NCBI RefSeq assembly: GCF_001856665.1 | Contig: NZ_CP017781.1 | Coordinates: 3,302,001-3,366,000, forward strand | DNA: 64,000 bases | Reading direction: 5' to 3' | Origin: Rhodobacter xanthinilyticus | GTDB taxonomy: Bacteria > Pseudomonadota > Alphaproteobacteria > Rhodobacterales > Rhodobacteraceae | Position numbers and translations under genes: made by a program | In this document: piece by piece, positions 27,276-59,631 of the stretch | How the letters are laid out: the number at the start of each line of letters is the position of its first letter | How positions within the stretch are numbered: the first letter of the stretch is position 1 | Notes under the pieces: model-generated | What the model was told of the DNA's origin: nothing | What the model saw: the letters and a program-made list of their open reading frames with translations, nothing else | The model's database searches: none

Positions 27276-29610
27276 CCGGGTCCGTGGCATCGACCCGGCG
27301 CTATTTGACCGCGGCTGGAGCCGAGTTTCGGGATCCTGGCAGGGGCTTTCTAAGGGCGCGCAGATGGTTCGGGCCGCGCGCGGCTATTCGCCAGCGATCT
27401 TCAAGGCTATCTCGAAAGGGGGCTGCCACACCGGGGCGCAGCTACGGGCTCAGCTCACATATCTCACGACGAAGTCGACCCATATCCTCGACAGTCGCGG
27501 CACCCATGACGGGAAGAAGCAGCTCTCGGAAGCCGAGATCAACCGAGTGGCGCGGCGGTTCGAGAACCAGTGGAACGAGCGCTACAGCCCCAAGCTTGGC
27601 CATACGTCGCATCTCCTGATGGCATTCCCGGTTGGGACCAGGGGTGAAGAGGTGCGCGATATCACCCAGGCGGTCTGCGAGAAGTTCTTTCAAGGTGAGG
27701 GGTCGCAATTCGACTATATTGCTGCAATACACCAAGATCGCGCGCATCCACATGCGCATATCGTTCTGAACCGCCGCAGCAAGGATGGCGAAATGTTCTT
27801 TCTCGGGAAGGATCATCACTTCAACTACGACGCCTTTCGCGAGGCGATGGTCGAGGCGGCCCGGGTTCATGGGATCCGCCTTGAGGCGACGCGTCGTCTG
27901 GATCGCGGCGTCACGACCTACCGCGCCGAGATCGATGAAATCTACAAGGCCCGCGACGAAGGTCGTCCCCCAGTCGAGCGCCAGAGAACCGGTGCTGACT
28001 TGGCGGCCGCACTGGAAACCGTCCGGCACAACGCTTTGATCTATCGCGGGCTCGCGGCGGAGGCCTCCCGTTCGAATTTCGAAGACGTGTCCGAGGCGCT
28101 CGAGAGGGCCAGCACCATCCTTGCCAGTGGCGGTCAGATTCAATCTGACGGAGCCATCTACATGTCCCAAGACGAAGCAGCGTTCGACACGCTGATCACC
28201 GAGTTTTCTCAGAACATTCGCCAGATCGAGGCGGCGATCGACAGAGCGCCGGCGGCCGAGAGGCCGGTGATCGAGCGCAAGCTGACCGACGTTCTGGCCT
28301 CGGTCGCGCATTTGAACCCGCTCGGGGATCGCTCCGCCGCCCTGATCGATGCCCCGTCCCGGGACGGCATCTATGCAAGGCCGAACTTAAGTGAAGATCA
28401 CCTCGCGCGTCTTGACGATAGAGAGGTGGCACCAAAGCTGGCCGAGGCGTTGCAAGGCACAGGCATCGATGCCGAGGCTGTGGCCGCGCGCCTGCGGGAA
28501 GGGGCAGGCAATGCCGCATTGGAACGCCAGTGGCTGGCACAGGACCTACAAGCGATTGCCAAAGCAAGCGACCTCGATCTGGAGAAATCTGCGGACCGGG
28601 AAGACGCGCTCGACCGGCTGGAAGCCGTGCATGTTCGGTTGGGCGATGTTCTGACCGATGTACGCGTCCTGCGCGCGCCAACCGAGGTCGACGAGGTGCA
28701 TGACGCCAAGGCAGCGCTTGGTGAGCGGTTGACGACACCTGGGAGTGATCTCGCGCAAGACGGGTCCGACATTTTTGCCCCATCGGAGCGGCAGGCGTTC
28801 AGGGCGCTGGTGGCGCAGTTCCGCCGGACGGATTTCGATCACCCGTTCTCCGACGACCCCTCGGTGCGGCGGGCGGGCGCCGTGGAGGTTGAAGAGGCCC
28901 GCGCCGCGTTCGACGCCTACGCGCAGAGATCCCCGCAGCATGCCGAATTGGCCTCGATGGCTTGGGAACAGATGACTGACAGTCGAATGCCGCCGCAATA
29001 TGCGGTATCGGAGCAGGACCGCACGCTGCATGCTGGCGACATGGACCTCGCCTTGCGGGATCCTTCGGATCATCTCGGTCCGATCACGGAAGAGCTCCGC
29101 ATCCTCGCCCGCTATCGCACGGAGATGCCGGATGACGAATTCGGTCAAGCCGTCCAGGACGAAATCAATCACCTTCGTTCGCTTGGCGCGTCGCGTGCCT
29201 ATATCAGCGAGCGCAGTTTCGAGATCGAGGACCACGCGCGACAAGACTACGCCGAGCGCCGGTATCTGGAAGAGACAGCGCCAACCGTCATGGCCTTTGT
29301 GCGAAACGCCGACGTCGAGGGCCCGCTCTCCGAGGCAGAGCAGCAGGACATCGTCCGGCAGATAAACGAGCGACTAAGCTCCGACGCAATCGACGCGCTG
29401 CGGGCCGGTAACGCGGACGTCCTGGACAAATTCACCGAGGATCCGCTGCGCCAGCTGGAACTCGCCAAGACCTATCTTCAAAGCAGCGAGGTCACCGCGC
29501 ATGGCCTAGCCATGGAGCGCGTTCTCGATGCTCTGGCCGAAGAGCAGATCGAGGCGCAGCGCGCGCGCCACGCCGCGGCACATGGTGAGAAGGGGATCAC
29601 CCATGGATAA
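27262..29610 (+). CDS. VirD2-like conjugative relaxase
   Basis: A 782-residue relaxase. The metal-binding histidine triad HPHAHIVLNRR is at residues 162-172 (His162/164/166), inside an N-terminal relaxase domain of ~280 residues. The long C-terminal part is charged and helical, without a recognised helicase or primase. VirD2-type relaxases nick oriT and remain attached to the 5' end. The ATG at 27262 (6 nt after GAGAGGG) is preferred over one at 27256. Placed between virD1 and virD4 with overlaps on both sides, as in a single transfer operon. C-terminal sequence for T4SS recognition is expected but not identified. Confidence 0.85.
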   Translation: MERSDRVRGIDPALFDRGWSRVSGSWQGLSKGAQMVRAARGYSPAIFKAISKGGCHTGAQLRAQLTYLTTKSTHILDSRGTHDGKKQLSEAEINRVARRFENQWNERYSPKLGHTSHLLMAFPVGTRGEEVRDITQAVCEKFFQGEGSQFDYIAAIHQDRAHPHAHIVLNRRSKDGEMFFLGKDHHFNYDAFREAMVEAARVHGIRLEATRRLDRGVTTYRAEIDEIYKARDEGRPPVERQRTGADLAAALETVRHNALIYRGLAAEASRSNFEDVSEALERASTILASGGQIQSDGAIYMSQDEAAFDTLITEFSQNIRQIEAAIDRAPAAERPVIERKLTDVLASVAHLNPLGDRSAALIDAPSRDGIYARPNLSEDHLARLDDREVAPKLAEALQGTGIDAEAVAARLREGAGNAALERQWLAQDLQAIAKASDLDLEKSADREDALDRLEAVHVRLGDVLTDVRVLRAPTEVDEVHDAKAALGERLTTPGSDLAQDGSDIFAPSERQAFRALVAQFRRTDFDHPFSDDPSVRRAGAVEVEEARAAFDAYAQRSPQHAELASMAWEQMTDSRMPPQYAVSEQDRTLHAGDMDLALRDPSDHLGPITEELRILARYRTEMPDDEFGQAVQDEINHLRSLGASRAYISERSFEIEDHARQDYAERRYLEETAPTVMAFVRNADVEGPLSEAEQQDIVRQINERLSSDAIDALRAGNADVLDKFTEDPLRQLELAKTYLQSSEVTAHGLAMERVLDALAEEQIEAQRARHAAAHGEKGITHG

Positions 29611-31585
29611 AGGCAAGATTGCCTTAGGAGTGTTGAGCCTCGTGCTGGTCGGTCTCGCCATGGGCTATGTCGTGGCGACCGGCTTTGTCATGTTCCGCTA
29701 TGGGCTTTCTCCCTCGCGTTTCGACGTCACCCTGCTTGCCCGCGAATATCGGGGTCTGTCTCAGTCTGCACCGAAAGACTTCCTCTGGGTGAACCTCATC
29801 CTTGGCGGCTTCGGCCTGGCATCGCTGATGCTGAGCGTCACGCTTCTGGGGGATGCATTGACCCGCTTCGGGACGACGCATTGGCAGACTCGCAGCGAGA
29901 TGAAGAGGAACGGTTTCTTTGCCAAGCCGGGCGGCGGCTTCCTTCTGGGCAAGCTCGGCTCCCCGAAATCCAGGCGCCCGTTCCTTGTCTCAAAAACCTT
30001 CCCCCACGCGCTGATCGTGGCGCCTACAGGCCGGGGCAAGGGCGTGGGGTTCGTGATCCCGAACCTTCTGACCTTCAAGGGCTCGGCCGTGGTGCTCGAC
30101 GTGAAAGGCGAGAACTTCCGTGAGACCTCGCGCTTCCGCGCCAGCATGGGGGACAAGGTTTTCCGCTTCGCGCCGACCGACTGGGACCGACCGACACATC
30201 GCTATAATCCGCTGGCGCGCATCGCGGCCATGACCAACCCCGACAGGCAGCAGATGGAGCTTAAACTCACCGCGAAGCTCTTCCTGCAGACCGACAATGA
30301 AAAGCTGAGCGGGCTTTTGGCCGGGGGTATCGACCTCTTCGTGGCGGCCGGCCTTCTGGCCTTCGAGCGCGGCGTGCCGACCATCGGCGAGATTTACCGC
30401 ATCACCGCCTCAGGCGGCGACAAGCAGAAGGAATATCTGAAACGCTCGCAGGAGGTGAAGAACAAGTCGGCCAAGCTGATCTTCGAGCGTATGGCATCGA
30501 CCAACAACGACACCCTCACTTCCTACCTCTCGCTTCTCATGACATCGGGTCTCGACACTTGGGACAACCGCGCGATTGACGCGGCCACCGCGACCTCTGA
30601 CTTCTCATTCCGGGATATCCGCCGCCGCCCGCATGCGATCTATCTCGTGGTCGAGTCAGAGATGATCCGCCCGCTGGCTCCGCTGATCCGCCTCTTCTTC
30701 TCGGACCTGATCGCCTCGCTGCAGGCTCAGGAACCCGGAGACGACGAGCCTTGGCCCGTCATGATCATGCTCGACGAGTTCGACCGGCTCGGCAAAATGC
30801 CGATCGTCGCCGAGAGCATCAAGACGCTGCGCTCTTTCGGCGGGAACCTAGCCATTGTCACCCAGACCATTCCGGCGTTGGACGAAATCTATGGTGAGAA
30901 CACCCGCAGGTCGCTTCAGGGCGGCGCAGGTGTGAAACTCTACCTCACCCCGTCCGAGCAGAAGACCATTGAGGAGCTGAGCCAGGCCGTTGGCAAGACG
31001 ACCAAGCGCGTGGTGACCCGCTCTCGCGCTGTTGGACGCAATCCGTTTGAGGGGCGCAGCGTTTCCGAGCGGACAGAGGACACCCCGCTCCTGACCGAGG
31101 ACCAGGCCCGCCGCATGGACCTCGACGAGGTGATCCTCGTGATCGACGCGCAGATGCCGATCCGGGCGCGGCGGATCAAGTATTTCGAGGATCCGGCGCT
31201 AAAGGCGCTGCATGCCGGTCAGGCGGGGAGTTTCCCGTATCCGGACGAGGACGGGCTGCGGCGGGATCGGCAGATGTCTGAGACCCGGGAAACGGTGGAG
31301 AGGTTGAAGCAGGAACTGCAGGAGGTGCGGGCGGCTGCGGGGGCACAGGGGGCCGAGGCGAATGCGCTGCCCAAAGCGGCTCAATCTCCCTCGCAAAAAC
31401 AGCTCGATCCCAAGCCAGCACCGTCAGGGCGGGCGCGAGGGAGGGCTGCACGGACCGCTGCGGGTGCCGCTGAGTCAGATCAGCTCTCCTTCGATCTGGC
31501 CGGGCTGGGTCTTCGCCCCTCTGACAGAACCCAACTGGCTGCGGCGGTTCTGACGACGCGAAGTATCATTGCACAGCATACGTGA
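29603..31585 (+). CDS. VirD4/TraG-type coupling protein
   Basis: A 660-residue type IV coupling protein. Two N-terminal membrane segments (residues ~7-30 and ~60-85) are followed by a RecA-like ATPase domain with Walker A APTGRGKGVGF (from residue 141) and Walker B MIMLDEFDRLG (Asp391). The C-terminal ~100 residues are charged and Pro/Ala-rich. VirD4 links the relaxosome to the mating channel. No VirB genes lie in the window, so either the channel is encoded elsewhere or the element is mobilised by another plasmid. It overlaps the relaxase gene by 8 bp. Confidence 0.9.
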   Translation: MDKGKIALGVLSLVLVGLAMGYVVATGFVMFRYGLSPSRFDVTLLAREYRGLSQSAPKDFLWVNLILGGFGLASLMLSVTLLGDALTRFGTTHWQTRSEMKRNGFFAKPGGGFLLGKLGSPKSRRPFLVSKTFPHALIVAPTGRGKGVGFVIPNLLTFKGSAVVLDVKGENFRETSRFRASMGDKVFRFAPTDWDRPTHRYNPLARIAAMTNPDRQQMELKLTAKLFLQTDNEKLSGLLAGGIDLFVAAGLLAFERGVPTIGEIYRITASGGDKQKEYLKRSQEVKNKSAKLIFERMASTNNDTLTSYLSLLMTSGLDTWDNRAIDAATATSDFSFRDIRRRPHAIYLVVESEMIRPLAPLIRLFFSDLIASLQAQEPGDDEPWPVMIMLDEFDRLGKMPIVAESIKTLRSFGGNLAIVTQTIPALDEIYGENTRRSLQGGAGVKLYLTPSEQKTIEELSQAVGKTTKRVVTRSRAVGRNPFEGRSVSERTEDTPLLTEDQARRMDLDEVILVIDAQMPIRARRIKYFEDPALKALHAGQAGSFPYPDEDGLRRDRQMSETRETVERLKQELQEVRAAAGAQGAEANALPKAAQSPSQKQLDPKPAPSGRARGRAARTAAGAAESDQLSFDLAGLGLRPSDRTQLAAAVLTTRSIIAQHT

Positions 31586-31912: not shown

Positions 31913-32299
31913 ATGAAGCCCAAATCCTCTAATTCAAAATCGCCGACCAAGCCCCCTGCAGAGCGAGTGGTCAAAGACATCCGTCGGCATACGCGTCGCC
32001 ATTTCTCGGCCGAGGACAAGATCCGGATCGTGCTGGAAGGCTTGCGCGGTGACGACAGCATCGCCGAGCTGTGCCGCAAGGAAGGAATCGCCCAAAGCCT
32101 GTACTACACCTGGTCGAAGGAATTCATGGAAGCGGGCAAGCGCCGCCTGGCGGGCGACACTGCCCGTGCCGCGACCACCGGCGAGGTGCAGGACCTGCGT
32201 CGTGAAGCCCGTGCGCTGAAGGAATGCGTGGCCGATCTGACGCTGGAAAACCGCTTGCTTAAAAAAAGCATGATCGCGGATGGGGGCGGCGACGAATGA
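31913..32299 (+). CDS. IS3-family OrfA
   Basis: A 128-residue HTH protein (FSAEDKIRIVLEGLRGDDSI, then CRKEGIAQSLYYTWSKEF) with a leucine-zipper-like end. A run of seven A followed by GC (32261-32269) is a typical -1 slippery site. Slippage there enters the orfB frame without meeting a stop, giving the OrfAB fusion transposase normal for IS3. The genes also overlap as ATGA. Confidence 0.88.
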   Translation: MKPKSSNSKSPTKPPAERVVKDIRRHTRRHFSAEDKIRIVLEGLRGDDSIAELCRKEGIAQSLYYTWSKEFMEAGKRRLAGDTARAATTGEVQDLRREARALKECVADLTLENRLLKKSMIADGGGDE

Positions 32300-33276
32300 G
32301 GTATCCCGCATCCGAGAAGCTCGAGATCATAAGGATCGTCGAGCAGTCGCACCTGCCCGCCAAGCGCACACTGGACCAGCTCGGCATCCCCCGCCGGACG
32401 TTCTATCGCTGGTATGAGCGTTACCTTGAAGGCGGGCCGGAGGCGTTGGAAGATCGGCCATCGGCACCGAGCCGGGTGTGGAATCGCATCCCGGCGTGCA
32501 TCCACGACCAACTCATCGAGCTGGCGCTGGAACAGTCCGAGTTGAGCCCCCGAGAACTGGCCGTGCGCTTCACCGACGAGCAGCGCTACTTCGTGTCGGA
32601 AGCCACGGTTTACCGGCTGCTCAAGGCCCACGACCTGATCACCAGTCCGGCCTATGTCGTGATCAAGGCGGCCGACCAGTTCCACACGAAGACCACCCGC
32701 CCGAACGAGATGTGGCAGACCGACTTCACCTACTTCAAGATCATCGGGTGGGGTTGGATGTATCTCTCAACCGTCCTCGACGACTTCTCGCGCTACATCA
32801 TCGCCTGGAAGCTGTGCACCAACATGCGGGCCGAGGACGTGACTGACACTCTGGACCTCGCCTTGGCGGCTTCCGGCTGCGACAGCGCCACCGTGCAGCA
32901 CAAGCCCCGGCTGCTTAGCGACAACGGCCCCAGCTACATCGCTGGCGAACTGGCGGAATACATCGAGGCGCGGAAGATGAGCCATGTCCGCGGCGCCCCG
33001 TGTCATCCCCAGACCCAGGGCAAGATCGAGCGATGGCACCAGACCCTGAAGCACCGCATCTTGCTCGAAAACCACTTCCTGCCCGGCGACCTTGAGGCCC
33101 AGATCGAGGCCTTCGTCGAGCACTACAACAACCAGCGCTACCACGAGAGCCTGAACAACGTGACGCCCGCCGACGCCTACTTCGGCAGGGCGCCGACCAT
33201 CCTCAAACAGCGTGAAAGGATCAAACGACAGACCCTCGAATATCGGCGCTTGCAGCACCGCAAGCTCGCCGCATAA
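32296..33276 (+). CDS. IS3-family OrfB transposase
   Basis: A 326-residue rve transposase. MWQTDFTYFKI gives the first Asp, LLSDNGPSYIA the second, and HPQTQGKIERWHQTLKHR the catalytic Glu. An N-terminal HTH (LDQLGIPRRTFYRWYERY) is present. Complete and probably active. Confidence 0.9.
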   Translation: MRYPASEKLEIIRIVEQSHLPAKRTLDQLGIPRRTFYRWYERYLEGGPEALEDRPSAPSRVWNRIPACIHDQLIELALEQSELSPRELAVRFTDEQRYFVSEATVYRLLKAHDLITSPAYVVIKAADQFHTKTTRPNEMWQTDFTYFKIIGWGWMYLSTVLDDFSRYIIAWKLCTNMRAEDVTDTLDLALAASGCDSATVQHKPRLLSDNGPSYIAGELAEYIEARKMSHVRGAPCHPQTQGKIERWHQTLKHRILLENHFLPGDLEAQIEAFVEHYNNQRYHESLNNVTPADAYFGRAPTILKQRERIKRQTLEYRRLQHRKLAA

Positions 33277-33350
33277 CATCATCCCACAGACGAGGCCCGC
33301 TCTCCGCTAATCTACGCCACAAGTTGCGCCAAATGTTCTGACGACGGACA

Positions 33351-34132
33351 TCTTGTAGAGCCGGGCATCCGGGTCGGTGGTTGAGGCATGGGTGGCATTG
33401 GACCGCTTCTCGCCCCGGAAATCGACTTCCGCATTGCGGTTCTGGCGGGTGGGACGGGACATCGGGTCGGTCTCGGACGGTGTCGGTTCGGGGTGGTCTT
33501 CGGCAGGGCTGTCTTGACCGGACGGGCCGCCCGGATCGTCGTCAGACGGCGTGTCGGTCGCCTTCGGCTGGAAGCTCTTCATGGAGGCCCAGGCCTTCAC
33601 CAACGTGCCATCGACCGAGAAGTGGTCGTCCGACAAGAGCGGCGCCACCTCGCGATGGGCCAGGATCGCTGCCATCACCTTGCGCGACATGTCGGTTGTC
33701 AGCAGCCGGTCGCGGTTCTTGCTGAACACGGTCGGCACCCAGACCGCATCGTCGATCCCGAGACCGACGAACCAGCGGAACAAGAGGTTATACTGCATCT
33801 GTTCCATCAACTGCCGCTCGGAGCGGATCGAGAACAGGATCTGGATCAGGCTCGCCCGGATCAGCCGCTCCGGCGCAATCGAGGGGCGGCCGAAGTCGAC
33901 ATAAAGCGCCTCGAACCCGGCATCGAGACTGGCCAGAGCATCATTCACCACCTGCCGGATCTTGCGCAACGGATGCCGCGCGGGGATGCGCGCCTCCAGA
34001 TCGACATAGCTGAACAGCGACCCGCTCGTCTCGTCCGTCCCGCGCATCATAACCCCCGCCGTTATCGTGCCGACGGTGAATCATGTTCTCATATCTCTGT
34101 CGAGGCGGGACTATTTCAGCGCCCTGTTAGAC
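33351..34132 (-). pseudogene. IS5/IS1182-like transposase, 3' end removed by an IS3 insertion
   Basis: From the ATG at 34050 about 233 residues of an IS5/IS1182-type transposase remain: DUF772 region LRKIRQVVNDAL to RLIRASLIQILFSIRSE, then DDHFSVDGTLVKAW and a charged linker to STTDPDARLYK. The frame then enters the IS3 right end at 33350 and stops after ~14 foreign residues. Complete members of this family are ~100-200 residues longer. The rest is not found on the other side of the IS3. The probable outer end (TTTCAGCGCCCTGTTAG) lies near 34112-34128. Confidence 0.75.
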
Positions 34133-34978: not shown

Positions 34979-35563
34979 ATGCTCAAAGCATTGGCAACGA
35001 TGGTCGCATTCACTGTCGCACCTCTGGCGGCCGCGGCACAGACGACAGACTACTTCAACTTCAGCATCTACACCGATGCCCAAGATCCCTACATCACCAA
35101 TCTGGGCTCCGGGGTGCATTCGGTCATCGGCACGTTTTCGGGCACTGACGGGGTCCTGTCTGAATTCACCGGCACCTTCACCGCGCCGCTGGGAAGCTGG
35201 GCCCTGACCAGCGATGACCTGACGTTCTTTTCGGGTTCCTATGACACGGTGTCGGGCGAGCTGTCTTCGCTGTCCTTCCGGTTCTATACCGAGGTCGGTG
35301 AGGCCGGTTATTATGTTTATACCTTCGGCGCCGGTAGCGGCGAGCCCTACAGCGATACGCTGTCTTTCAAGAAAACCGGGGTTTCCGGGTTCCAGACCAC
35401 GGAACTCACCGCCAACTGGGATGTTTCGGCGGTGCCCGAAATGGATCGCGGCGGCTTTGCCTCAGTGGCGTTTGTGTTTCTGGCCGGCCTCGGCTGGATG
35501 TGGCGGCGGCGCGGACAGACTTCGGGTCGGCTTGCCGTCCTGCCCAACCCCACAGCGATCTGA
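34979..35563 (+). CDS. Secreted protein with VPEID-like (VPEMD) C-terminal sorting tail
   Basis: A 194-residue exported protein. A signal peptide covers residues 1-20 (ends APLAAAA), a beta-rich Thr/Ser/Gly-rich body follows, and the C-terminus has VPEMD (152-156), a hydrophobic segment (~159-174) and a basic cluster WRRRG. This tripartite tail is the exosortase recognition signal; VPEMD fits the VPEID type, whose dedicated enzyme is exosortase E, encoded at 36981-38615. The usual tail ends soon after the arginines; here ~16 residues follow. It probably becomes anchored or released at the cell surface together with the EPS. A strong terminator follows 24 bp after the stop. Confidence 0.8.
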   Translation: MLKALATMVAFTVAPLAAAAQTTDYFNFSIYTDAQDPYITNLGSGVHSVIGTFSGTDGVLSEFTGTFTAPLGSWALTSDDLTFFSGSYDTVSGELSSLSFRFYTEVGEAGYYVYTFGAGSGEPYSDTLSFKKTGVSGFQTTELTANWDVSAVPEMDRGGFASVAFVFLAGLGWMWRRRGQTSGRLAVLPNPTAI

Positions 35564-35586
35564 TCTGTTCCGTTTGCCCTGACTGG

Positions 35587-35619
35587 ACCGCGCTGCGCCC
35601 ATCGCAGCGCGGTTTTTTT
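35587..35619 (+). terminator. Rho-independent terminator of the VPEMD protein gene
   Basis: Perfect 11-bp stem ACCGCGCTGCG (35587-35597) / CGCAGCGCGGT (35603-35613), 5-nt loop, then a T run to 35619. It ends the plus-strand gene; the facing minus-strand operon ends at 35661. Confidence 0.9.
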
Positions 35620-35660
35620 GTTGCTGCCCCGGGCGGCGCCGGGGGCCTAGCCTGCTCAGG

Positions 35661-36974
35661 TCATGGCCACAGCAGAACGGCGCCGATCTGGATCACCACG
35701 ATCAGCGCAACCGCGAGGGGCGCAAGCATGATGATGGACCGCGGCGCCACCCTGTGCAGCAGCGGCCCTACCGACAGCCCGGCCCCCCCCGCTGCCGCCA
35801 TCAGGATCATGGATTGCCGCCAGTCTGCCGAAGGCGGGTTATAGGTCAGCAGAAACGCCAGACAGACCAGCGGCACCGCCATCATGGGCAGCGCGGCCAC
35901 CAGCCGCGCAGCAGGGTTTTGCAGCAGCGAATCCTCTTCGTCGTCGGGGTCAAACCAGCTGCCCGCGGCCTGTAGCCAGCTTGCCGCCAGCCCGCAGGCG
36001 GCGCCGGCCAGCGCGGCCATCAGCGCGATGCGCAGGTTTGGCCGCGGCGCGGATGCCGCCTGCGGGCTGGCGGTCGCGCGATCTGCCGTCGGCGCCGGAA
36101 TGCCGACCGATGACCCCTGCAACGCTTCGTGGGCCAGATCGCGAATGATCCGGTCACGCTGGTCGGCCGCATTCTGGCGGATCAATCCGTCTGCGATCTG
36201 ATCGCGCATGTCTTCAACCCGCACCGGATCGGGTGTGCGGTCGATCAGCAGGATCAGCCGTTGGTCCACCGCGGTCGGCATCAGGGTGAACCGCTGATGC
36301 CCTGACCACAGCCGATCCAGAGCCGCTGAAAACGAGCGGGGCAGTTGTTCGGTGCTGCGCGTCACCGACAGGGCGCTGAACGATAGCCGGGCCGCGCGCA
36401 GCCGGGCCAGCAGATCGGTCACCTGCGCCATGGTCAGCGGCCCCTGCGGCAGGCCCGCCAGATCGCTGCGCAGCGCCTGCTTGTGCGGCTCTGTCATCTC
36501 ATGCAAGATCACCTCGACATAGCGATAGCTTGCGCGGCCTTCGAACATCTGCGGATTCTGGCGGGCAAACTCTTGAATATCGCCTTCGGTCGGGGTGTAG
36601 CGGGTCGAATTCTGTGCCACATAGTGATCTAGCATCACCCGGCGCTGCGCCTCTTTCAGCTTTAGCAAAAGGCTGTCTTCCGGCCCGTCAGAGCCGCTGA
36701 TCAGCCGACGCCGCACCACAAGCCCGGCCAGCAACAGATCGCGCGCCCGCTGGCGCAGCGAGTCAGCCGATTCCCCGGGTTCGGGCGTCAAAAGCCGCAT
36801 GTAGTTTTCCACATCGCCTGTCGTCACGATCTGGCCATCGACCCGGGCGATGATGTCTGGCGCGCCCTGCGCCAGGACCGGTGCGGCCAGCAGCCAGGCC
36901 ATTATTCCCGTGGCATACAGCAGGCCGGGGCCCACCCCGCAGCGACAAATCAGAGCAGTCAACAGTTTGATCAT
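35661..36974 (-). CDS. EpsD-like peptidyl-prolyl isomerase with C-terminal membrane domain
   Basis: A 437-residue protein. Signal peptide or anchor at residues ~15-36, then a SurA-type N-terminal chaperone region (IIARVDGQIVTTGDVENYM) and a linker (RYTPTEGDIQEFARQNPQMF) typical of EpsD-family PPIases of exosortase loci. After residue ~300 three to four membrane segments follow (MAALAGAACGLAASWL, MMAVPLVCLAFLLTY, a further pair near the end), which EpsD proteins normally lack. A canonical parvulin active site is not clear. It starts 6 bp after the exosortase stop and is the last gene of the minus-strand operon. Probable role: folding or delivery of the sorted protein in the periplasm. Confidence 0.7.
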   Translation of the reverse strand: MIKLLTALICRCGVGPGLLYATGIMAWLLAAPVLAQGAPDIIARVDGQIVTTGDVENYMRLLTPEPGESADSLRQRARDLLLAGLVVRRRLISGSDGPEDSLLLKLKEAQRRVMLDHYVAQNSTRYTPTEGDIQEFARQNPQMFEGRASYRYVEVILHEMTEPHKQALRSDLAGLPQGPLTMAQVTDLLARLRAARLSFSALSVTRSTEQLPRSFSAALDRLWSGHQRFTLMPTAVDQRLILLIDRTPDPVRVEDMRDQIADGLIRQNAADQRDRIIRDLAHEALQGSSVGIPAPTADRATASPQAASAPRPNLRIALMAALAGAACGLAASWLQAAGSWFDPDDEEDSLLQNPAARLVAALPMMAVPLVCLAFLLTYNPPSADWRQSMILMAAAGGAGLSVGPLLHRVAPRSIIMLAPLAVALIVVIQIGAVLLWP

Positions 36975-36980
36975 GTCGGA

Positions 36981-38615
36981 TCACCAGTAAGAGTATTGCC
37001 CTGTGACCAGCACATGGGCAGCAAGAAGTGCGTTGGTGGTGGCATGGGCCACAACGGCATCAGACAGGCCCCGGCCCTTCAGCGTCAGTGCGCCATAGGC
37101 CAGCCCGGCCAGTGTGCCGGCCACGGCATCCTGATGCAGCAGCCCAAAACCAAGCGCCGCCAGGGCGGCGGCAATCCAGGGGCCAAGTCGGCCCGCATTC
37201 TGCCGCGCCAGCCAGGCGGCAAGCGCGGGCTGAATCCCGCCGCGAAACGCCATTTCTTCCAGCAGCGGAATGGCGATTGCCGCCCCGACCGTGCGCAGGC
37301 CCAGCCAGACCAGCGCCACGGCCGCCGGGGCAGCGCCCAGTGCCTGCCCGATCAGGGCGCTGCCGTCGAGGTCGGGCGGCACAAGAGAGATCCACATCAC
37401 ATAGACTGCCGCGCCGGTGGCCGCGGCGCGGGGCAGGGCGGGCGTCGCGAACCTCGGCCGCAGCGATGGCCAGCCCCGCCAGACCATCGCTGCGCCCACC
37501 ATCACCGGCAGGGGGTAAAGCCAGTTCACCGGCCCGGCCAGCAGCCCCAGCAGCAGCCCGGCCATGGTCATCCCGGCCAGCGGCATGATCGTGGGCAGCG
37601 CGTCAGTCAGCGTATCAGCCGGGCGGTCACCGGCGGCCGCGGCCATCGCGCGCGGCGCGGCACTGCGCTGGAACGCCGGCAGTTGCAGCGCCGCCACCGC
37701 ACCGGCCATCACCAGCAACAGACCCACCGCGCCGAAATGCGAATGAAACCCGTTTAGTGCCAGATCGGCCCAGCCACCGGCGCCAATCGCAAACAGCAGT
37801 GCGATGCGCAGCGCATTGATCAGGAACACCGCCCCGCAGGCCGCCAGGGCCAGCAGCGCCGCCCGCCCGTTGTGCAGCCTCTGCCGTTCGGCCATCGCAT
37901 AAAGCAGGATCAGCGTCGCGGCGCCCGCAACGCCTTCGTAACCCGCACAAGAGGCTGCGATGGAAATGACAAAACCCTGTGACAGCAACACCGGCTTGGC
38001 GGCCGCATCGCGCAGGATCTCGATCGGGGCGACATGCAGCAGATCCAGAAAACGCAGCGTCAGCCGCAGCGTCAGATCTTCGATGATGGCCTGCAGGTGC
38101 ATCAGCGGCAGTTGCGCCAGCTGCGCCACCAGACCCCAGGCCGCAGCCAGCGCCGCCCCGCCGCCCAGCAGCAGCCGCAGACCCCGGGTTCTGGCCGTGG
38201 GCGGGATCAGAAGCGCGGTGGCCCCGGCCAGCCAGACCAGTGCCCCCCCCACCGCCACGGGATCAAGGGCTGCGCCGCGCCCGCCCGTGGCCAGCGCCGC
38301 ATACCCCCCTGCTGTGGTCACAAAAGCCGCCAGATGCAGGCCACAGGCCACCGCGCTGCGCCGCGCGGTCAGCATGATGTGGCGCGTCGCCGGCTGCCAG
38401 AGCCCCGACAGTACCGCCAGCGCCGCAACGCCAGCCAGAACCAGCGTGGCTTCATGCAGCCACAGCAGCACCGGACCCAGCCAGCTGCGCGTTTCAAGCC
38501 CGGCATGAAGCCCCCGCCCCAGCGCAAACAGCACCGCGGCCTCGGCCCCCAGCAGCAGAGCCACCGCCACGCCGGACCGCCGCGCCAGCCCCTCCGTCAG
38601 GGCCTGCCTCATCAT
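36981..38615 (-). CDS. xrtE: Exosortase E / CPBP protease fusion (VPEID-CTERM system)
   Basis: A 544-residue polytopic membrane protein made of two enzymes. The exosortase half has the catalytic Cys223 (ASCAGYEG), Arg270 (NALRIALL) and His291/293 (GFHSHFG). The C-terminal half is a CAAX-type (CPBP) intramembrane protease with EE453-454 (LLEEMAFRGG), His494 (GLLHQDAVAG) and His524 (VVAHATTNALLAAH). This fusion is the hallmark of exosortase E, which processes VPEID-CTERM proteins. Its predicted substrate is the VPEMD protein at 34979. The start at 38615 overlaps the upstream stop as ATGA. All key residues are present, so it should be active. Confidence 0.9.
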   Translation of the reverse strand: MMRQALTEGLARRSGVAVALLLGAEAAVLFALGRGLHAGLETRSWLGPVLLWLHEATLVLAGVAALAVLSGLWQPATRHIMLTARRSAVACGLHLAAFVTTAGGYAALATGGRGAALDPVAVGGALVWLAGATALLIPPTARTRGLRLLLGGGAALAAAWGLVAQLAQLPLMHLQAIIEDLTLRLTLRFLDLLHVAPIEILRDAAAKPVLLSQGFVISIAASCAGYEGVAGAATLILLYAMAERQRLHNGRAALLALAACGAVFLINALRIALLFAIGAGGWADLALNGFHSHFGAVGLLLVMAGAVAALQLPAFQRSAAPRAMAAAAGDRPADTLTDALPTIMPLAGMTMAGLLLGLLAGPVNWLYPLPVMVGAAMVWRGWPSLRPRFATPALPRAAATGAAVYVMWISLVPPDLDGSALIGQALGAAPAAVALVWLGLRTVGAAIAIPLLEEMAFRGGIQPALAAWLARQNAGRLGPWIAAALAALGFGLLHQDAVAGTLAGLAYGALTLKGRGLSDAVVAHATTNALLAAHVLVTGQYSYW

Positions 38616-39025
38616 TGACCGGCCGCGGCCAGCCGGTTTCTGAGCGCCATCATCGCCGCACAGCAATCGGGGTCGGTTCTCAGCCCGGCATCAATGATCT
38701 GGGACAGCATCAGCCGGATCTGCATCGCCTGGCTACCCGAAAGCCGCGGCAGGCTGGTCAGATCGGCAGCCAGGGTTTCGCCCAGAATTACGGCAGCGCC
38801 GGTAGCCTCGGGCGATCCGGGCCGCGAATCGATCAGCTTGCGCACCTCGCTGGTGCGAGTGGCAGGGGGCAGCAGATTGCCCACCGTGCTGACCGCGCGA
38901 CCCGATACCAGCGGCACCGCCTGCGACGATACCGGCTGAACGCCCGGCTCAATCGTCGTGGTGCCGGCAAAAGCCGCCGATCCGGTCAGGATCAGGGTGG
39001 CACCGATCAGTGCAAGGGTTTTCAT
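38612..39025 (-). CDS. Small exported protein of the exosortase/EPS operon
   Basis: A 137-residue protein with a clear signal peptide (MKTLALIGATLILTGSAAFA, cleavage near residue 20). The mature part is helical near the end (GSQAMQIRLMLSQIIDAGL) and has two adjacent cysteines (DPDCCAAMM). No family recognised. It overlaps both the outer-membrane-type gene and xrtE by 4 bp, so it probably works with them in the periplasm. Confidence 0.7.
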   Translation of the reverse strand: MKTLALIGATLILTGSAAFAGTTTIEPGVQPVSSQAVPLVSGRAVSTVGNLLPPATRTSEVRKLIDSRPGSPEATGAAVILGETLAADLTSLPRLSGSQAMQIRLMLSQIIDAGLRTDPDCCAAMMALRNRLAAAGQ

Positions 39026-39873
39026 GGCCTGTCCTTTCCGAACAGCTTGTCGGTTGAAATGCCCACGGCAAAAGAGATGCGGCTTTCACCCTGCGACCGG
39101 GCAAGGTCATGGGCCGTCAGCATGAACACCGTGTTGGCAAAGCGGTCAAAGCGCAGGCCAAAGCCTGCTTTCAGCACGCCCGCATCATCGGCCACACTGA
39201 CGCTGAGATGCCGGGTCAGCCCCAGCCCGATGCCGACAAAGGCGCCCGGGTCGGTGCCTTCGTCCTGGTGATCACCATATCCGACCGAGATCATCAGCGG
39301 ATAGAACCGGCCATCGGCAAACGGTCCGAGCCGGGTGACATGCGTGCCCGTCAGTGTCAGGTTGACGGCGCGGCCCTCGGCATCGCCCCAGGGCGCCAGC
39401 CCCTCGGCGCCGAAGGCCAGATAGTTCTGCCCCAGATCGCGCAGCACCCGACCGCCGATCTTGGCCGAGACATAGCCGGAATCGGCGAAATCTGCTGTCT
39501 CGGTCGAGGTGATTTCAATGGCGACATCGCCGCCAATCCCGGTTTCCTGATCGCCAAAGCCCGCCCCGAACGACAGCGAACCATCCAGTTCGCGCAACCC
39601 CGAAGGCCGCCTGTCCGATCCACTGATCGAAAAGAACACGGTTCCCCCCGGCGCCGTGCGGGCGCCGCCCACTCCCTGCACCGAGAGAAAGTTGGGCTCC
39701 TGCGTGGCAAAGCCCAGGCTGGCCATCGCTTCGGTCAGGTCATCGGCGGAAATGGCCTGGCCCGCACCGGTTTGCCCGGCGCCGCTTTGCCGCGGGCCAG
39801 TCTGGGCAAGGGCGGCTGGCGCGGCCAACAGGCCAAGCGCGCAAAGTGCCGCAGCGGGCAGGGTCAGGGTCAT
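39022..39873 (-). CDS. Predicted outer-membrane beta-barrel-like protein of the EPS operon
   Basis: A 283-residue protein with a signal peptide (ends APAALAQ, residue ~24), a short low-complexity linker and then alternating amphipathic strands (SVGYGDHQDEGTD, FVGIGLGLTRHLSVSV, AGFGLRFDRFAN, SRISFAVGIS), a pattern of barrel strands. No family recognised. It sits between wzc and the small exported protein and may be an EPS- or exosortase-associated surface component. The barrel prediction is by strand pattern only. Confidence 0.6.
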   Translation of the reverse strand: MTLTLPAAALCALGLLAAPAALAQTGPRQSGAGQTGAGQAISADDLTEAMASLGFATQEPNFLSVQGVGGARTAPGGTVFFSISGSDRRPSGLRELDGSLSFGAGFGDQETGIGGDVAIEITSTETADFADSGYVSAKIGGRVLRDLGQNYLAFGAEGLAPWGDAEGRAVNLTLTGTHVTRLGPFADGRFYPLMISVGYGDHQDEGTDPGAFVGIGLGLTRHLSVSVADDAGVLKAGFGLRFDRFANTVFMLTAHDLARSQGESRISFAVGISTDKLFGKDRP

Positions 39874-39919: not shown

Positions 39920-42094
39920 TTAGGCGTAATAGCGGGAATAGGCCGCGCCGTAGGCTTCGGTGGAACTGCGCGGGTCGTAGCAGTTCAGAACCGCGCCGGT
40001 GATCTGCACCCCGGCGGCAGCCATCAACCCGCGCACCGCCGTCAGCTCTGACGGGGTAGTTCGATTGTGGCGCGCGATCAGCAGGGTGGCGCCCATCTCT
40101 TTGCCGATCAGCACCGGATCAGTCACGTTCAGCGCGGGAGGGCTGTCGATCACCGTCAGGTCAAAGCGGCGGTTAAGCTCGGCCACAAGCGCCGACAGCC
40201 GCGGATTCATCAACAGTTCAGAGGGGTTGTGGGGTAAGGGCCCGGTAGGGATCAGCCACAGCCCCTCCAACGGTCCCTTGACAAGAATGCTGTCCAGATC
40301 GGCGGTGCCTTCCAGATAGCTTGACAGGCCCGGGTGGCTGCGCTTGACGCCAAAGCGCAGATGGGCGGTGCCGCGCCGCATGTCGCCATCAACCAGACAG
40401 ACGCGCTGCCCGGCCATGGCAGAAACCACGGCCAGGTTTTCCGCACAGAAGGACTTGCCGACCTCGGGGGTGGCGCCGGTCACCAGCACCGCATTGTTGC
40501 GCGCGCCCGTCATGCTGAAATGCAGCGAGGTGCGCATCGACCGAAAGGATTCGATCGCGGCATCACGCGGGGCATTCAGCGCAAAAATCTCCCGCAGGCG
40601 CCGGTTGCGGCGGTCGCCTATCCCGCGCATGTATTGCACCACGGCAAAGACGCCCAGACCCAGCGATTCAAGATCGGCGGTGCGGGTGATCCCCACGCGC
40701 AGCCAGTTGCGCAATAGCACGATGGCGGCAGCGGCAATCATCGCCGTCACGGTCCAGAAGGGCAGGATGCGCGACAGCCGCGGCGAAACCGGCGCGCCGG
40801 TGGCGCGGGCAAGATCGACAATGCGCACATTGCCGATCTTGCTGGCCTGCATCACCCGCAACTCCTGCGCGCGGATGCTGAGCTGCATATAGTTTTCTTG
40901 TGCGACATCCAGCGCGCCGGTCAGTTTGACCAGCTCGCGCTGTGTGCCGGGCAGGCGCGAGATCTGGTCTTGCAAATTGACAAGCTGCGATTCAACGTGG
41001 CTCTTGTCGGCCAGCAGCTGCCGATAGGCCGGGTGGCTGGGGGTGTAGCGCTGCCGCATTGCGGTTTCTTCGCGGTTCAGCGTTTCAAGCTGCGATTTAA
41101 GCGCGGCGGTCTGCGACAGCATGTCCTGCGCTTCGAAATCGAGGTCGATGGCCTGATTGGACCGGCGGAAATCGTTGAGCGCAGTTTCCGCCGCCGATAC
41201 AGCGGCCTCGGCGGTCAGAAGATTGCTTTCGATGAAGGCAAGGCTGCTAGCGGCCTCGGCCGAGCTGCGGTTGATGTTCTGGCGCAGATAGGCCTGCGCC
41301 ACGGCATCCAGCGTCTGTTCGGCCTCTGCGGGCGATGCGTCGGCATAGGTCAGCCGCAGCATGAAAGACTGGCGGGTGGTTTCGGTCACGCCAAGGCGGC
41401 TGCGCAGATCGGCGATGGCCGCCGTCCGGCTGCGCTGCACCAGATCGAACCGACGTCCTTCGGGGGCGGCCAGCTTGCCCACGCGCAGCACCAGCCCGCT
41501 CTGCGCATCGGTCAAGGTCTGGCCTACCTCGCCCTGCAACATGCGGCCGTCCGGCAGGCGCAGCGCATAGCGGCCCCCCGTTCCGGCCGTCAGTTCCAGC
41601 CGCGCACCGATCCAGCCGTCTGGCACCTGTAGCCCGTCCAGTTCGATGATTTCGCCCTTGCGGGCATAGGCGCGCAGAAACCTGGCGTTGGGCAGCGGCA
41701 CATCATGCAGCGCCAGATATGTGCCGATCAGCGGGGCCCGCTGCGGCGCCACATGCCAATCCAGATTCAGGCGCGCAACCGCTTCGCCCAGCACCATCCG
41801 CGACCGCAGGATTTCGATTTCGGTCACGGTATGGGGATCATCGTCCAGCTGCGCAGTCAGGGCACTGGGCAGAGACAGGGCAGCGCTGCGCGATTCAAGC
41901 TGCAGGAGGGCATCGGCCTGATAGACCGGCGCGCTGCCGAGATAGACCAGCATTCCGGTAAACATCCCCGCCACACCGGCCAAACCGACCATGCGCCGCG
42001 CCTGCCACAGCCGCAAGAGTACATCGCGCAGGTCAACGCCATCATTCTGCGCGCCGGTGGCGGCCGATTTCCAGTCATGCGTCTGCACTACCAT
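39920..42094 (-). CDS. wzc: Wzc-like polysaccharide co-polymerase and BY-kinase
   Basis: A 724-residue inner-membrane protein with a Wzz domain (residues ~20-110, first membrane segment near 35-52), a periplasmic coiled-coil region (~265-400), a second membrane segment (~445-462) and a cytoplasmic BY-kinase. Kinase motifs: Walker A-like GATPEVGKSF (~540), Walker A' VCLVDGDMRRG and Walker B VIDSPPALNVTDP. The C-terminal tyrosine cluster is short (YGAAYSRYYA). It sets chain length and couples synthesis to export. The upstream phosphatase gene overlaps it by 7 bp, forming the normal kinase/phosphatase pair. Confidence 0.92.
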   Translation of the reverse strand: MVVQTHDWKSAATGAQNDGVDLRDVLLRLWQARRMVGLAGVAGMFTGMLVYLGSAPVYQADALLQLESRSAALSLPSALTAQLDDDPHTVTEIEILRSRMVLGEAVARLNLDWHVAPQRAPLIGTYLALHDVPLPNARFLRAYARKGEIIELDGLQVPDGWIGARLELTAGTGGRYALRLPDGRMLQGEVGQTLTDAQSGLVLRVGKLAAPEGRRFDLVQRSRTAAIADLRSRLGVTETTRQSFMLRLTYADASPAEAEQTLDAVAQAYLRQNINRSSAEAASSLAFIESNLLTAEAAVSAAETALNDFRRSNQAIDLDFEAQDMLSQTAALKSQLETLNREETAMRQRYTPSHPAYRQLLADKSHVESQLVNLQDQISRLPGTQRELVKLTGALDVAQENYMQLSIRAQELRVMQASKIGNVRIVDLARATGAPVSPRLSRILPFWTVTAMIAAAAIVLLRNWLRVGITRTADLESLGLGVFAVVQYMRGIGDRRNRRLREIFALNAPRDAAIESFRSMRTSLHFSMTGARNNAVLVTGATPEVGKSFCAENLAVVSAMAGQRVCLVDGDMRRGTAHLRFGVKRSHPGLSSYLEGTADLDSILVKGPLEGLWLIPTGPLPHNPSELLMNPRLSALVAELNRRFDLTVIDSPPALNVTDPVLIGKEMGATLLIARHNRTTPSELTAVRGLMAAAGVQITGAVLNCYDPRSSTEAYGAAYSRYYA

Positions 42095-42552
42095 CTCACC
42101 TGCTCCGTCATTGCCCTGGCCCAGGTCAGCGAGGCCTGCCAGACTTGGGTGAAAATCCTGTCATGGTGGTCTGCCGACCCAAGGATCGGGTCTTCGATAT
42201 CGGCGCTGCCGCACCAGTGGGTCAGCAGAAACACGCGCCCTGCCAGCGCCCGAGTCCGGGTCACGATCAGATCGGCCTGCGCCGCTTCCATGCACAGCAG
42301 CAGATCTGCGGCAAGCGCCATCTGCGATGTCAGCCGCCGGGCCCTTGCCGCAGAAAGGTCAAGCCCCGCGCGGGCGGCACGGTCTTGCCACAGGTCCAGA
42401 GCCGGTTGCCCCGGCTCTGCAGCCAGCCCGGCCGAGCGGATCGTGCAACCCGGAACCCGGGCCTGCAGAACCGCCTCGGCCAAAGGCGAACGGCAGACAT
42501 TGCCGGTGCAGACGACCAGAACCGAGCGAAAGTCGGGCAAGGGCGCTGTCAT
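42088..42552 (-). CDS. wzb: Low-molecular-weight protein tyrosine phosphatase, Wzb-like
   Basis: A 154-residue LMW-PTP. The P-loop CX5R is VCTGNVCRSPLAE (Cys15, Arg21) and the acid motif DPILGS (near 120) supplies the catalytic Asp. It dephosphorylates the C-terminal tyrosines of the BY-kinase next door, with which it overlaps. Wza-Wzb-Wzc order is the classical export operon. The residues needed for catalysis are all visible. Confidence 0.9.
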   Translation of the reverse strand: MTAPLPDFRSVLVVCTGNVCRSPLAEAVLQARVPGCTIRSAGLAAEPGQPALDLWQDRAARAGLDLSAARARRLTSQMALAADLLLCMEAAQADLIVTRTRALAGRVFLLTHWCGSADIEDPILGSADHHDRIFTQVWQASLTWARAMTEQVRW

Positions 42553-42556
42553 GGTG

Positions 42557-43627
42557 TCATCGCCCAGTGGCGTCGGCGCTTTGTCCGGCCGAAAGCGTCG
42601 GCAACAGCCGCCTGATCGTGTCGTTCCATTTGCTCAGCGGCGAGCGGGTGACATAGATCACATCGCCCGACAGCAACAGGAACCGGTTGCCGGTCAGCCA
42701 GCCCTCGGGCGCAGACACGTCCAGTTGAAACACCGTGGTGCCCGCAGCCGTCTGGCGAAAGACAAAAACCCCGCGGGCATCAGCGCGCAGTTCATCCAGC
42801 CCGCCTTGCCGGGCAAGTGCCTGTGTCAGCGTGATCGGATCAAGCGCAAGATTCACCACAGAGGGTTGGCGCACGCTACCCATGACATAGGCCTCAAGCG
42901 CGACCTGTCGGCGCACCGTCACGATATCGCCCGCGGTCAGCACCGGATTGTTGGCGCTCAGCCCTTCAGCCAGAAAGGCGTGCAGGTCGACATCGTAAAC
43001 CTCGCCCCCGCGCTGCACCGTGACGTGATCGGTATCGGCCAGCGGCGTCAGACCGCCCGCGGCATTGATCGCCTCAAGCAGTTGCAGCGGCCTGGTCGAG
43101 AGCGCAACCGACCGCGGCGTGGCCACCTCGCCGGTGATGACGATGCTGTGCGCGTTGAATTCGGCAACGCTGACTTCGATCTGCGGATCGGGGATATAGG
43201 TCGCCAACTGTTCGGTTAGCGCCGTGCGGATCTGTTCCGCCGTCATCCCGGCTGCCATCACCTTGCCGACAAACGGGTAAAAGAAAGTGCCGTCATCCTG
43301 CACCATCACCGTCGAGGCCGCCGCGCCCTGCCGGTCTGCGGTGCCGGTCGAAAGTTCTGGGTGATCAAAGACAGCAATACGGATCACGTCACCCGGGCCG
43401 ACCCGGTAGATCCACTTGCCGCCCGGCTGCAGCGCGGTACGTTTGCTGCCGACGGGCTGTGCGGCAAAACTGGCGATATTGGCAGGGGTCAGCGCCACGA
43501 CATTGACGCCCGGCAAAGCGCTGGCCTGCGCCGAGGGCGAAACCGGCACCCGCACCGATCCATCGGCACAGGCCGCCAGAACCAGAAAGATCGCAAGGCT
43601 TGCCGGGGCGCTGAATTTGTCGATCAT
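42557..43627 (-). CDS. wza: Wza-like outer-membrane polysaccharide export lipoprotein
   Basis: A 356-residue lipoprotein: signal peptide with lipobox LAAC (Cys20), a Poly_export domain (~70-160, YRVGPGDVIRIAVFDHPEL) and SLBB domains (~165-320, VITGEVATPRSVAL, VMGSVRQPSVV). It forms the outer-membrane channel for the polymer. It is first in the minus-strand export operon; the region before it has a TATAAT box and a palindrome. Confidence 0.92.
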   Translation of the reverse strand: MIDKFSAPASLAIFLVLAACADGSVRVPVSPSAQASALPGVNVVALTPANIASFAAQPVGSKRTALQPGGKWIYRVGPGDVIRIAVFDHPELSTGTADRQGAAASTVMVQDDGTFFYPFVGKVMAAGMTAEQIRTALTEQLATYIPDPQIEVSVAEFNAHSIVITGEVATPRSVALSTRPLQLLEAINAAGGLTPLADTDHVTVQRGGEVYDVDLHAFLAEGLSANNPVLTAGDIVTVRRQVALEAYVMGSVRQPSVVNLALDPITLTQALARQGGLDELRADARGVFVFRQTAAGTTVFQLDVSAPEGWLTGNRFLLLSGDVIYVTRSPLSKWNDTIRRLLPTLSAGQSADATGR

Positions 43628-44747: not shown

Positions 44748-45644
44748 ATGCGAAACCCATTGGCTTTGAATATCCAGCGGCTGCGCGGCAGGTATCGGCG
44801 CCTGCGCGCCGCGCTGTCGGCGCCACGGTTGCAGGTGCAGCGCATGGTTGTCATGCGCGACAGACATCCCATGTGCGAACGGCCGATCATCGTGATGGCC
44901 TGCCACCGGTCGGGCACCACGCTGCTGCGGCGCATTCTGCATTCGCACAGTGCCATCGCCTGCCCGCCGGAATCGTTCTTTCTGCACCATTTCATGGATT
45001 TCCTGAGCCGCCCGCAGTCGCGCGAAGGGCTGGGCAGCATCGTGGGCCCTGAAGCGGTGGATGCCACGATCCGCGCCGCCGCCTTTCAGTATCACGAAGC
45101 CTTTCGCATCGCCCAGGGCAAAGCGCGATGGGCCGACAAGACCCCGGCCTATATAAGGCGCTGGCCGGAATTGGTGGCGCTTGCCCCGCCCGAAACCCAA
45201 TGGGTGGTGATCCTGCGCGATCCTTTCGATGTGGCGGCCTCAGTCTACGAGCGGGGCTGGTTCATCGAACATTACGGCGACAGGCCCGAAGCCGAAGCGG
45301 ATCTGTTCGAAAACACGGTCTGCTATCTTGAAGACTACTTTGGCAAGCTGGCCGATTTCATCGGCACGGGCCGGGCCTATGTGCTGCGCTATGAACAGCT
45401 TGCCAGCGACCCCGAGCCGGTGCTGCGCCACCTGTTCCAGCATCTGGGCGAGCCATGGGAACCCGCGGTGATGACCCCTTGGGCCAGCCAGCACAATTTC
45501 GGCATCGAAGATCCGATCGCGCGGGGCACCCGTGGTTTTGTGCCCAGTATCGGCAACTGGCGGGTGTTTTCCGCGGCCCAGATGGCGGTGCTTACCGAAC
45601 GCATGGGGGCGTTGCGGCAGGCGCTGGGTTATGATGCGCCCTGA
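44748..45644 (+). CDS. Sulfotransferase, first gene of the EPS synthesis operon
   Basis: A 298-residue PAPS-dependent sulfotransferase. The 5'-phosphosulfate loop is CHRSGTTLL (52-60), and the 3'-phosphate motif is VVILRDPFDVAAS near 153-165. No signal peptide, so it acts in the cytoplasm, perhaps on the lipid-linked repeat unit. It overlaps wzx by 14 bp. Sulfation of the polymer is inferred; some family members act on small molecules or proteins. Confidence 0.85.
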   Translation: MRNPLALNIQRLRGRYRRLRAALSAPRLQVQRMVVMRDRHPMCERPIIVMACHRSGTTLLRRILHSHSAIACPPESFFLHHFMDFLSRPQSREGLGSIVGPEAVDATIRAAAFQYHEAFRIAQGKARWADKTPAYIRRWPELVALAPPETQWVVILRDPFDVAASVYERGWFIEHYGDRPEAEADLFENTVCYLEDYFGKLADFIGTGRAYVLRYEQLASDPEPVLRHLFQHLGEPWEPAVMTPWASQHNFGIEDPIARGTRGFVPSIGNWRVFSAAQMAVLTERMGALRQALGYDAP

Positions 45645-54125: not shown

Positions 54126-54141
54126 ACCAAGGAAGCTTTCC

Positions 54142-56921: not shown

Positions 56922-56968
56922 GCGGCTGACGCGCAGACCCGGGCTCCGGCCCCGGGCGCGCTGCCGGT

Positions 56969-58153: not shown

Positions 58154-58497
58154 GTCAAAATCTCCGCCCCGATGACTGCCGGATCCGCCGCCGGCGATCG
58201 GCGAGCGGCTTCCGCACCACCATGCTCAAAGCACGGCCAGACTGTCGAAAGCGCATCGGATTGCGGCGGCTATCGCCCGAGCGTTGGGGCTGTCGAATGT
58301 CCGGCGCGGTATCGAACGCCCTTTTGCCTTGGGTCACGGGCCAGTGATACGAAGTCTGCGCGACACTGCCGGTTCTCTTGGGTCGGCGCGCGGCGCATCG
58401 CCGGGTAATGGCAGGCATCTATCCTTGCATCGCGCCATCGTTCGCCTGGCCCGGTCAGTGCACGAACCCTATGCGGCAGACAACAGGACAGGCGAAG
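58154..58497. other. 344-bp intergenic region between priming transferase and gmd
   Basis: The two genes are divergent, so promoters for both should lie here. I see no gene. A GC-rich dyad near 58168-58190 (CCGCCGGCG, GATCGG) is visible, but no confident -35/-10 pair. Confidence 0.4.
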
Positions 58498-59619: not shown

Positions 59620-59631
59620 AGGAGAGCGGCA

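Follow-up and report, generated by a model that had tools for sequence, protein, structure and literature searches.

Fusions between an EpsH-like domain and a CAAX-protease-like domain have been described before (four cases are reported in PMC1569441), and that report places epsH genes nearly always among exopolysaccharide (EPS) genes. The genes for rhombosortase and its target are reported to be consecutive in most single-target genomes (PMC3237569), the CPBP protease MrtX is reported to be needed for cleavage of the MYXO-CTERM tail, including upon co-expression in E. coli, and MrtJ pairs with a single JDVT-CTERM protein (PMC11980579). Here, we analysed a 64,000-nucleotide stretch of the Rhodobacter xanthinilyticus genome (contig NZ_CP017781.1, positions 3,302,001 to 3,366,000 of the forward strand; the window, to which the coordinates below refer), in which a gene for an exosortase/CPBP glutamic-protease fusion lies in an EPS locus near a gene for a protein with a VPEMD-type C-terminal tail. 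The names exosortase E and VPEID-CTERM for the closest described system are those of NCBIfam, and XrtE is the short name for exosortase E. Our literature searches, with most subscription journals outside their coverage, returned no experimental study of an exosortase E/CPBP fusion. We conclude that the window fusion is a divergent variant of a known, experimentally little-studied sorting system, of which the fusion type and the layout with one enzyme and one tail were already known. We consider it reasonably probable that this divergent XrtE-like fusion, which was probably acquired together with the EPS island, most likely processes the convergently encoded neighbour protein.

The fusion gene (36981-38615, minus strand) encodes 544 amino acids when read from the ATG at 38615, the mechanically called open reading frame (ORF) opening at a TTG at 38666; its identification draws on domain models, aligned residues, and a structure model. 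The exosortase half scores 33 bits with TIGR04178 (cut-off 23), and the CPBP half scores 96.8 bits with TIGR03008 (cut-off 81.05) and 47.5 bits with PF02517 (cut-off 22.4). By alignment, the catalytic residues are Cys223, Arg270, and His291 in the exosortase half and Glu453, Glu454, His494, His524, and Asn528 in the CPBP half; the enzyme thus carries both catalytic sets, as the initial annotation of this locus had claimed. The fusion is intact. That annotation had also named the protein an exosortase E/CPBP fusion and had taken the lack of a TIGR04162 (exosortase E/protease) match as the outcome that would speak against it. The architecture holds and the whole-protein match is strong (E 7.8e-41), yet at 140.6 bits it stays below the curated cut-off of 150 and leaves the XrtE name unsupported by this model. 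The window fusion is built like XrtE, and an assignment to TIGR04162 and TIGR04161 is not warranted on present evidence. The fusion did not match the XrtA model and was the only exosortase found in its own genome. Its predicted structure is of good quality (pLDDT 86.5, pTM 0.85). No solved structure matched it by sequence, the best Foldseek E was 0.21, and the VIA-align matches were generic-looking helical bundles; we concluded nothing from the fold searches. Loop charges averaged over 70 relatives weakly suggest a periplasmic position of the exosortase site.

Relatives of the fusion are sparsely distributed. At E 1e-10 or better, 34 of 295 genomes of the family contained one, as did 4 of 385 genomes class-wide, and 4 of 389 relatives matched at E 1e-30 (the own genome included in each count); within the genus, 1 of 18 genomes has the enzyme. 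The best other relative among the family genomes is 37% identical across residues 122-542. A collection of 84,980 species genomes, scanned with a pattern that spans the Glu-Glu motif of the CPBP half, yielded at least 79 loci, and the closest among the matches listed in that scan is L132, from a Rhodobacteraceae metagenome-assembled genome (MAG; 39% over 386 amino acids). When 16 relatives were scored with TIGR04162, 15 passed (264.2-590.1 bits for the first eight examined, 171.7-517 for the remaining seven) and L132 alone failed with 139.2 bits. A maximum-likelihood tree, built with a quick method and rooted at the midpoint, held 102 proteins after removal of six near-duplicate and six partial rows. 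In it, L132 (38% identical) is the sister of the window enzyme (support 100, on a stem of 1.05), L137 joins them next (support 93), and the pair lies outside an 80-row clade (support 99) that holds most Rhodobacterales enzymes.

These relationships can be read in two ways. Either the window holds an ordinary XrtE/VPEID-CTERM system in which enzyme and tail have drifted under the cut-offs, with no separate lineage or new function, or the window enzyme and L132 form a separate fusion class with its own tail code, which within the island would couple the export of a possibly sulfated polysaccharide by Wza-Wzc to the anchoring of a single beta-rich surface protein that is attached to this polysaccharide or retained by it. 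The long stem outside the main clade, a tail that is unlike all others by profile, and an uncommon EPS setting (both described below) fit poorly with simple drift; however, the shortfall of the pair is small and graded, with L137 (171.7 bits) and L170 (180.5 bits) just above the cut-off, the pair sits amid passing members in that L137 is next to it and L133 (240.5 bits) lies further out, and architecture, residues, and motif are identical. A separate class is weakened by these same passing fusions, and by a tree that has a midpoint root only and in which the window branch is long and its composition unusual. Given that the neighbouring rows of the tree score above the TIGR04162 cut-off, we give drift about an even chance and regard a separate class as unlikely. 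As they stand, the models for enzyme and tail do not capture the window lineage. As a side observation from the same tree, the fusion of L166, from a MAG labelled Klebsiella pneumoniae, groups with that of the alphaproteobacterial MAG L199 (support 100); the L166 contig was probably misbinned or its MAG misnamed.

Both active sites are conserved among the relatives. Of the 102 proteins in the alignment, 101 have the exosortase Cys and all 102 have the Arg and His, and for the CPBP half the Glu-Glu pair and an Arg are present in all 101 rows with letters at these positions, the residue corresponding to His494 in 98 of 100, to His524 in 100 of 100, and to Asn528 in 99 of 100. Since the rows from the large scan were chosen by the Glu-Glu pattern, while those from the family and class searches were not, the Glu conservation in that part of the set is partly a product of selection. 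Conservation of both residue sets favours a need for both halves, and this bears on the idea that sorting cleavage falls to the CPBP half alone, as in myxosortases, with the exosortase half serving as a recognition or transfer module. The requirement for MrtX in MYXO-CTERM cleavage, also on co-expression in E. coli (PMC11980579), makes such an arrangement conceivable, and the CPBP half does match the MrtJ and Mrt-core models (NF033192, 32.1 bits; NF040914, 20.8 bits), although under their cut-offs of 75 and 100 bits; but Cys, Arg, and His of the exosortase half show conservation as strict as that of the CPBP residues, and we consider this idea improbable. The window system resembles the MrtX and MrtJ systems in that a CPBP protease is paired with a tripartite C-terminal tail, and differs from them in the fusion of CPBP to an exosortase, in the sub-cut-off scores with these models, and in a tail motif that has no Cys. 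In L202 (9281-10987, a Henriciella MAG), the one row without the exosortase Cys, this residue is replaced by Tyr, the first CPBP His by Tyr, and the Asn by Ala, so that, judged from these substitutions, both active sites were apparently lost together; L202 nonetheless scores 317 with TIGR04162.

The candidate substrate gene (34979-35563, plus strand) encodes a protein of 194 amino acids that belongs to no NCBIfam or Pfam family. The N-terminal hydrophobic segment of this protein looks by eye like a signal peptide, and its C-terminal tail (35432-35512, plus strand) has the VPExD motif, here VPEMD, followed by a hydrophobic segment and a basic cluster, RRR; the protein ends with VPEMDRGGFASVAFVFLAGLGWMWRRR plus 16 residues. 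The coordinates, strands, VPEMD motif, and 16-residue extension had been read correctly from the outset. The structure model of the protein has a pLDDT of 49 and six strands. To identify tails we used a strict filter ([VILA]PEx[DSNG], then a hydrophobic and a basic stretch) that was set once the window's tail was known and that, like its looser version, requires the PE motif or a close variant. Among 9285 six-frame ORFs (in other loci, those more than 3 kb from the enzyme), 7 passed the strict filter, i.e. the window tail, five tails with VPEVS/VPEID/VPELD motifs that belong to other enzyme loci, and a short ORF of L135, while 27 passed the looser filter, including two further short window ORFs. 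Thus, the protein is, as had been proposed, the only sorting-tail protein in the window in the sense of being its sole strict-filter ORF. A second tail in the own genome was not found above noise, the next best match having an E of 0.56 with a profile that included the window's tail; the E of 1.4e-12 for the window tail itself in that genome search is circular, because the profile contained this tail, and was replaced by leave-out tests.

The established tail models did not recognize the protein. TIGR04161 (cut-off 33 bits), a search with which had been proposed as a check, gave no match to the tail protein at E 10 in hmmscan or in the genome search. TIGR02595 for PEP-CTERM (cut-off 16 bits) gave none on the tail protein, and its single match in the rest of the genome stays below the cut-off. 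A search of the 295 family genomes returned no convincing homologue of the tail protein (best other E 0.003). Concerning its position, the tail had been described as facing the enzyme across its own terminator. A terminator-like hairpin with a 13-pair stem followed by T's does lie 3' of the tail gene (35585-35615, plus strand), and the tail gene is convergent with the operon, but a gene for an EpsD-like peptidyl-prolyl isomerase (PPIase; 35661-36974, minus strand), on which the initial annotation is silent, stands between the tail gene and the fusion gene. Over the 10.5 kb scanned there were 10 terminator-like sites against a shuffle mean of 7.8, i.e. no excess.

For comparison, we counted tails beside other fusion enzymes in 113 enzyme loci (duplicates between two locus sets kept) using the filter [VILA]PE[IMVL][DSNG] plus hydrophobic plus basic; these counts are lower bounds, since some contigs end near the enzyme. 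Of the 113 loci, 85 have a tail ORF no more than 3 kb away from the enzyme, giving 90 tail ORFs with a median length of 78 amino acids, of which 53 are convergent downstream and 33 upstream on the same strand. The motif is VPEID in 57 of them, VPEIS in 15, and VPEMD in 4. Therefore, VPEMD instead of VPEID was read correctly but is not unusual and was rejected as a new motif. Similarly, the proposed one-enzyme, one-substrate system stands insofar as one exosortase and one tail were found, whereas its novelty was rejected, this being the common layout. Of 35 genomes with the enzyme, 21 have a TIGR04161 match over the cut-off, and in 20 of these the match lies near the enzyme (the exception is G034); the own genome is without such a match. 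Several tails occur in L099, L134, and L122. Specifically, L099 (11337-17392) has five VPEVS/VPEVT-type tail ORFs by one fusion enzyme and represents a many-substrate case, and in L134 (5816-9263, a Rhodocyclaceae MAG) three consecutive tail proteins are encoded immediately upstream of the fusion.

Because of its motif, its proximity, and the lack of any alternative tail among those found, we pair the enzyme with the facing protein, which on these sequence features would be the best candidate substrate. Several results weigh against this pairing. The window tail gene is on the opposite strand and 1.4 kb away with a gene between, while 85 of the 90 neighbouring tails lie within 300 bases of the enzyme. 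Against a profile built from the 90 neighbouring tails, with its own sequence left out, the window tail reaches 3.9 bits (E 36, noise), and further leave-out profiles give it 4.4 bits (78 main-clade tails) and 2.4 bits; the same main-clade profile gives 12 tails from deep-branching loci 12.4-33.1 bits. Whole-sequence shuffles reached the score of the window tail in 0 and 1 of 200 cases with two profiles, but shuffling of the hydrophobic segment alone matched or beat it in 132 and 162 of 200; hence, only motif and layout carry signal. Finally, no tail is visible for L132, either on its 8.7-kb contig, where the enzyme starts at base 337, or in its 1.9-Mb bin. The profile and shuffle results, the intervening gene, and the opposite strand would fit a facing protein that is not the substrate, its helix and RRR forming a plain membrane anchor or having arisen by chance and the real substrate being elsewhere or missing, and the fact that no homologue of the tail protein occurs near the relatives' enzymes points the same way. 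On the other hand, the arrangement of motif, helix, and basic cluster is rare among the ORFs filtered, no other tail was found in the genome, and the layout is convergent as in most known pairs; on balance, we think it rather unlikely that the facing protein is not the substrate. Taken against the exosortase E/VPEID-CTERM system as a whole, the window shares the exosortase-CPBP fusion, the catalytic residues, and the usual single neighbouring tail, often convergent, and it differs in an enzyme under the TIGR04162 cut-off, a tail that fails both TIGR04161 and the 90-tail profile, a substrate of 194 rather than a median of 78 amino acids, an intervening PPIase gene, and a position inside a wza-wzb-wzc operon.

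If the XrtE-like fusion does process its convergent neighbour, the substrate would be exported via its signal peptide until its C-terminal helix holds it in the inner membrane, leaving VPEMD on the outer and RRR on the inner side. The exosortase half, using Cys223/Arg270/His291, would cut near the PE motif on the periplasmic side and hand the cut protein to an acceptor, possibly one linked to EPS or lipid. The CPBP half, using Glu453/Glu454/His494/His524/Asn528, may carry out a second step in the membrane, either preparation of the tail or removal of the leftover helix. Judged by the position of the genes in one operon with wza-wzb-wzc and the PPIase gene, processing may go with EPS export. 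With a divergent fusion in a compact EPS operon, and a single exosortase and a single candidate substrate found in the genome, the locus could serve as a small model for asking what each protease half does and whether the cut protein is passed to an EPS-linked acceptor.

The tie to EPS, as claimed initially, is real by position and uncommon for this enzyme group, and any functional link would be an extrapolation from that position. The fusion gene is the second-last in a tightly packed minus-strand series with intergenic spacings of -7 to +46 bases by coordinates. This series comprises genes for a Wza-type outer-membrane polysaccharide export protein (42557-43627; PF02563, PF22461), a Wzb-type low-molecular-weight phosphatase (42088-42552; PF01451), a Wzc-type chain-length/tyrosine autokinase (39920-42094; family models), an uncharacterized 283-amino-acid protein with a signal-peptide-like start (39022-39873), a secreted-looking 137-amino-acid protein with no family above cut-off (38612-39025), the fusion, and, as the last gene, the PPIase (437 amino acids with a C-terminal hydrophobic region; TIGR02925, 56.2 bits, under the cut-off of 108.9). 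No sigma-70-type promoter was found across 34.3-44.8 kb. In having an exosortase in an EPS locus with an EpsD-like PPIase and Wza/Wzc-type proteins, the window resembles the XrtA/EpsH-PEP-CTERM system, from which it differs in that the enzyme lacks a match to the XrtA model and the genome lacks a PEP-CTERM tail above cut-off.

Exosortases were first linked to EPS loci, and among the loci that we examined the fused XrtE type is mostly not close to a wza-wzb-wzc operon. In 34 enzyme loci from the family and class searches (up to 20 kb each) there was no strong match to the Wza, Wzb, Wzc, or PPIase of the window, and two had one weak match each (L106 to Wzc, L110 to Wza). Among the loci of the large scan, wza, wzb, and wzc lie at a distance of 2.3 kb from the enzyme in L151 and of 3.2 kb in L171, and at least 11 more loci have a single Wza or Wzc match, mostly weak. 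L151 (3347-10966) and L171 (2458-10993) show no visible VPE-type tail and have two secreted-looking proteins of 313-339 amino acids encoded between the enzyme and wza-wzb-wzc, which is another EPS-linked layout; because both enzymes fall inside the 80-row clade, EPS linkage of the fusion probably arose more than once. Four congeners have a related Wzc (40-41% in those loci) and no fusion there. The PPIase was rejected as an exosortase-specific partner, as the other enzyme loci examined contained no relative of it. It has matches in 5 of the 295 family genomes (own included), three of them weak; the contig neighbours of the best match (G142, 25%) look by eye like sugar-synthesis genes, and the G142 genome has no fusion match at E 1e-10.

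The remaining EPS block (44748-60627) encodes, according to Pfam, a sulfotransferase, glycosyltransferases, an acyltransferase-SGNH protein, a WecA-like initiating transferase, and an epimerase, with a flippase represented by a weak match below cut-off. Together with Wza, Wzb, and Wzc, these genes bear out the EPS locus of the initial annotation. Because of the sulfotransferase gene (44748-45644), the local polysaccharide may be sulfated. Homologues of the 283-amino-acid protein (35%) are found on three Cereibacter plasmids, on two of them near a gene annotated as stealth family/capsular polysaccharide biosynthesis; the 137-amino-acid protein has no significant similarity to the product of the gene after the Cereibacter homologue (E 0.58), and no plasmid homologues of the enzyme, the tail protein, or the PPIase were found.

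On the other flank of the locus, a relaxase and a TraG-type conjugative coupling protein are encoded at 27130-31585. Two transposase genes follow at 32296-34050, one of the integrase-core type and one with DUF772, possibly partial. The EPS block may be a mobile or once-mobile island, and because of this flank and the presence of the enzyme in a single genome of the genus, the island may have been acquired. Further away, a Fic-domain protein with DUF4172 is encoded at 23125-24252.

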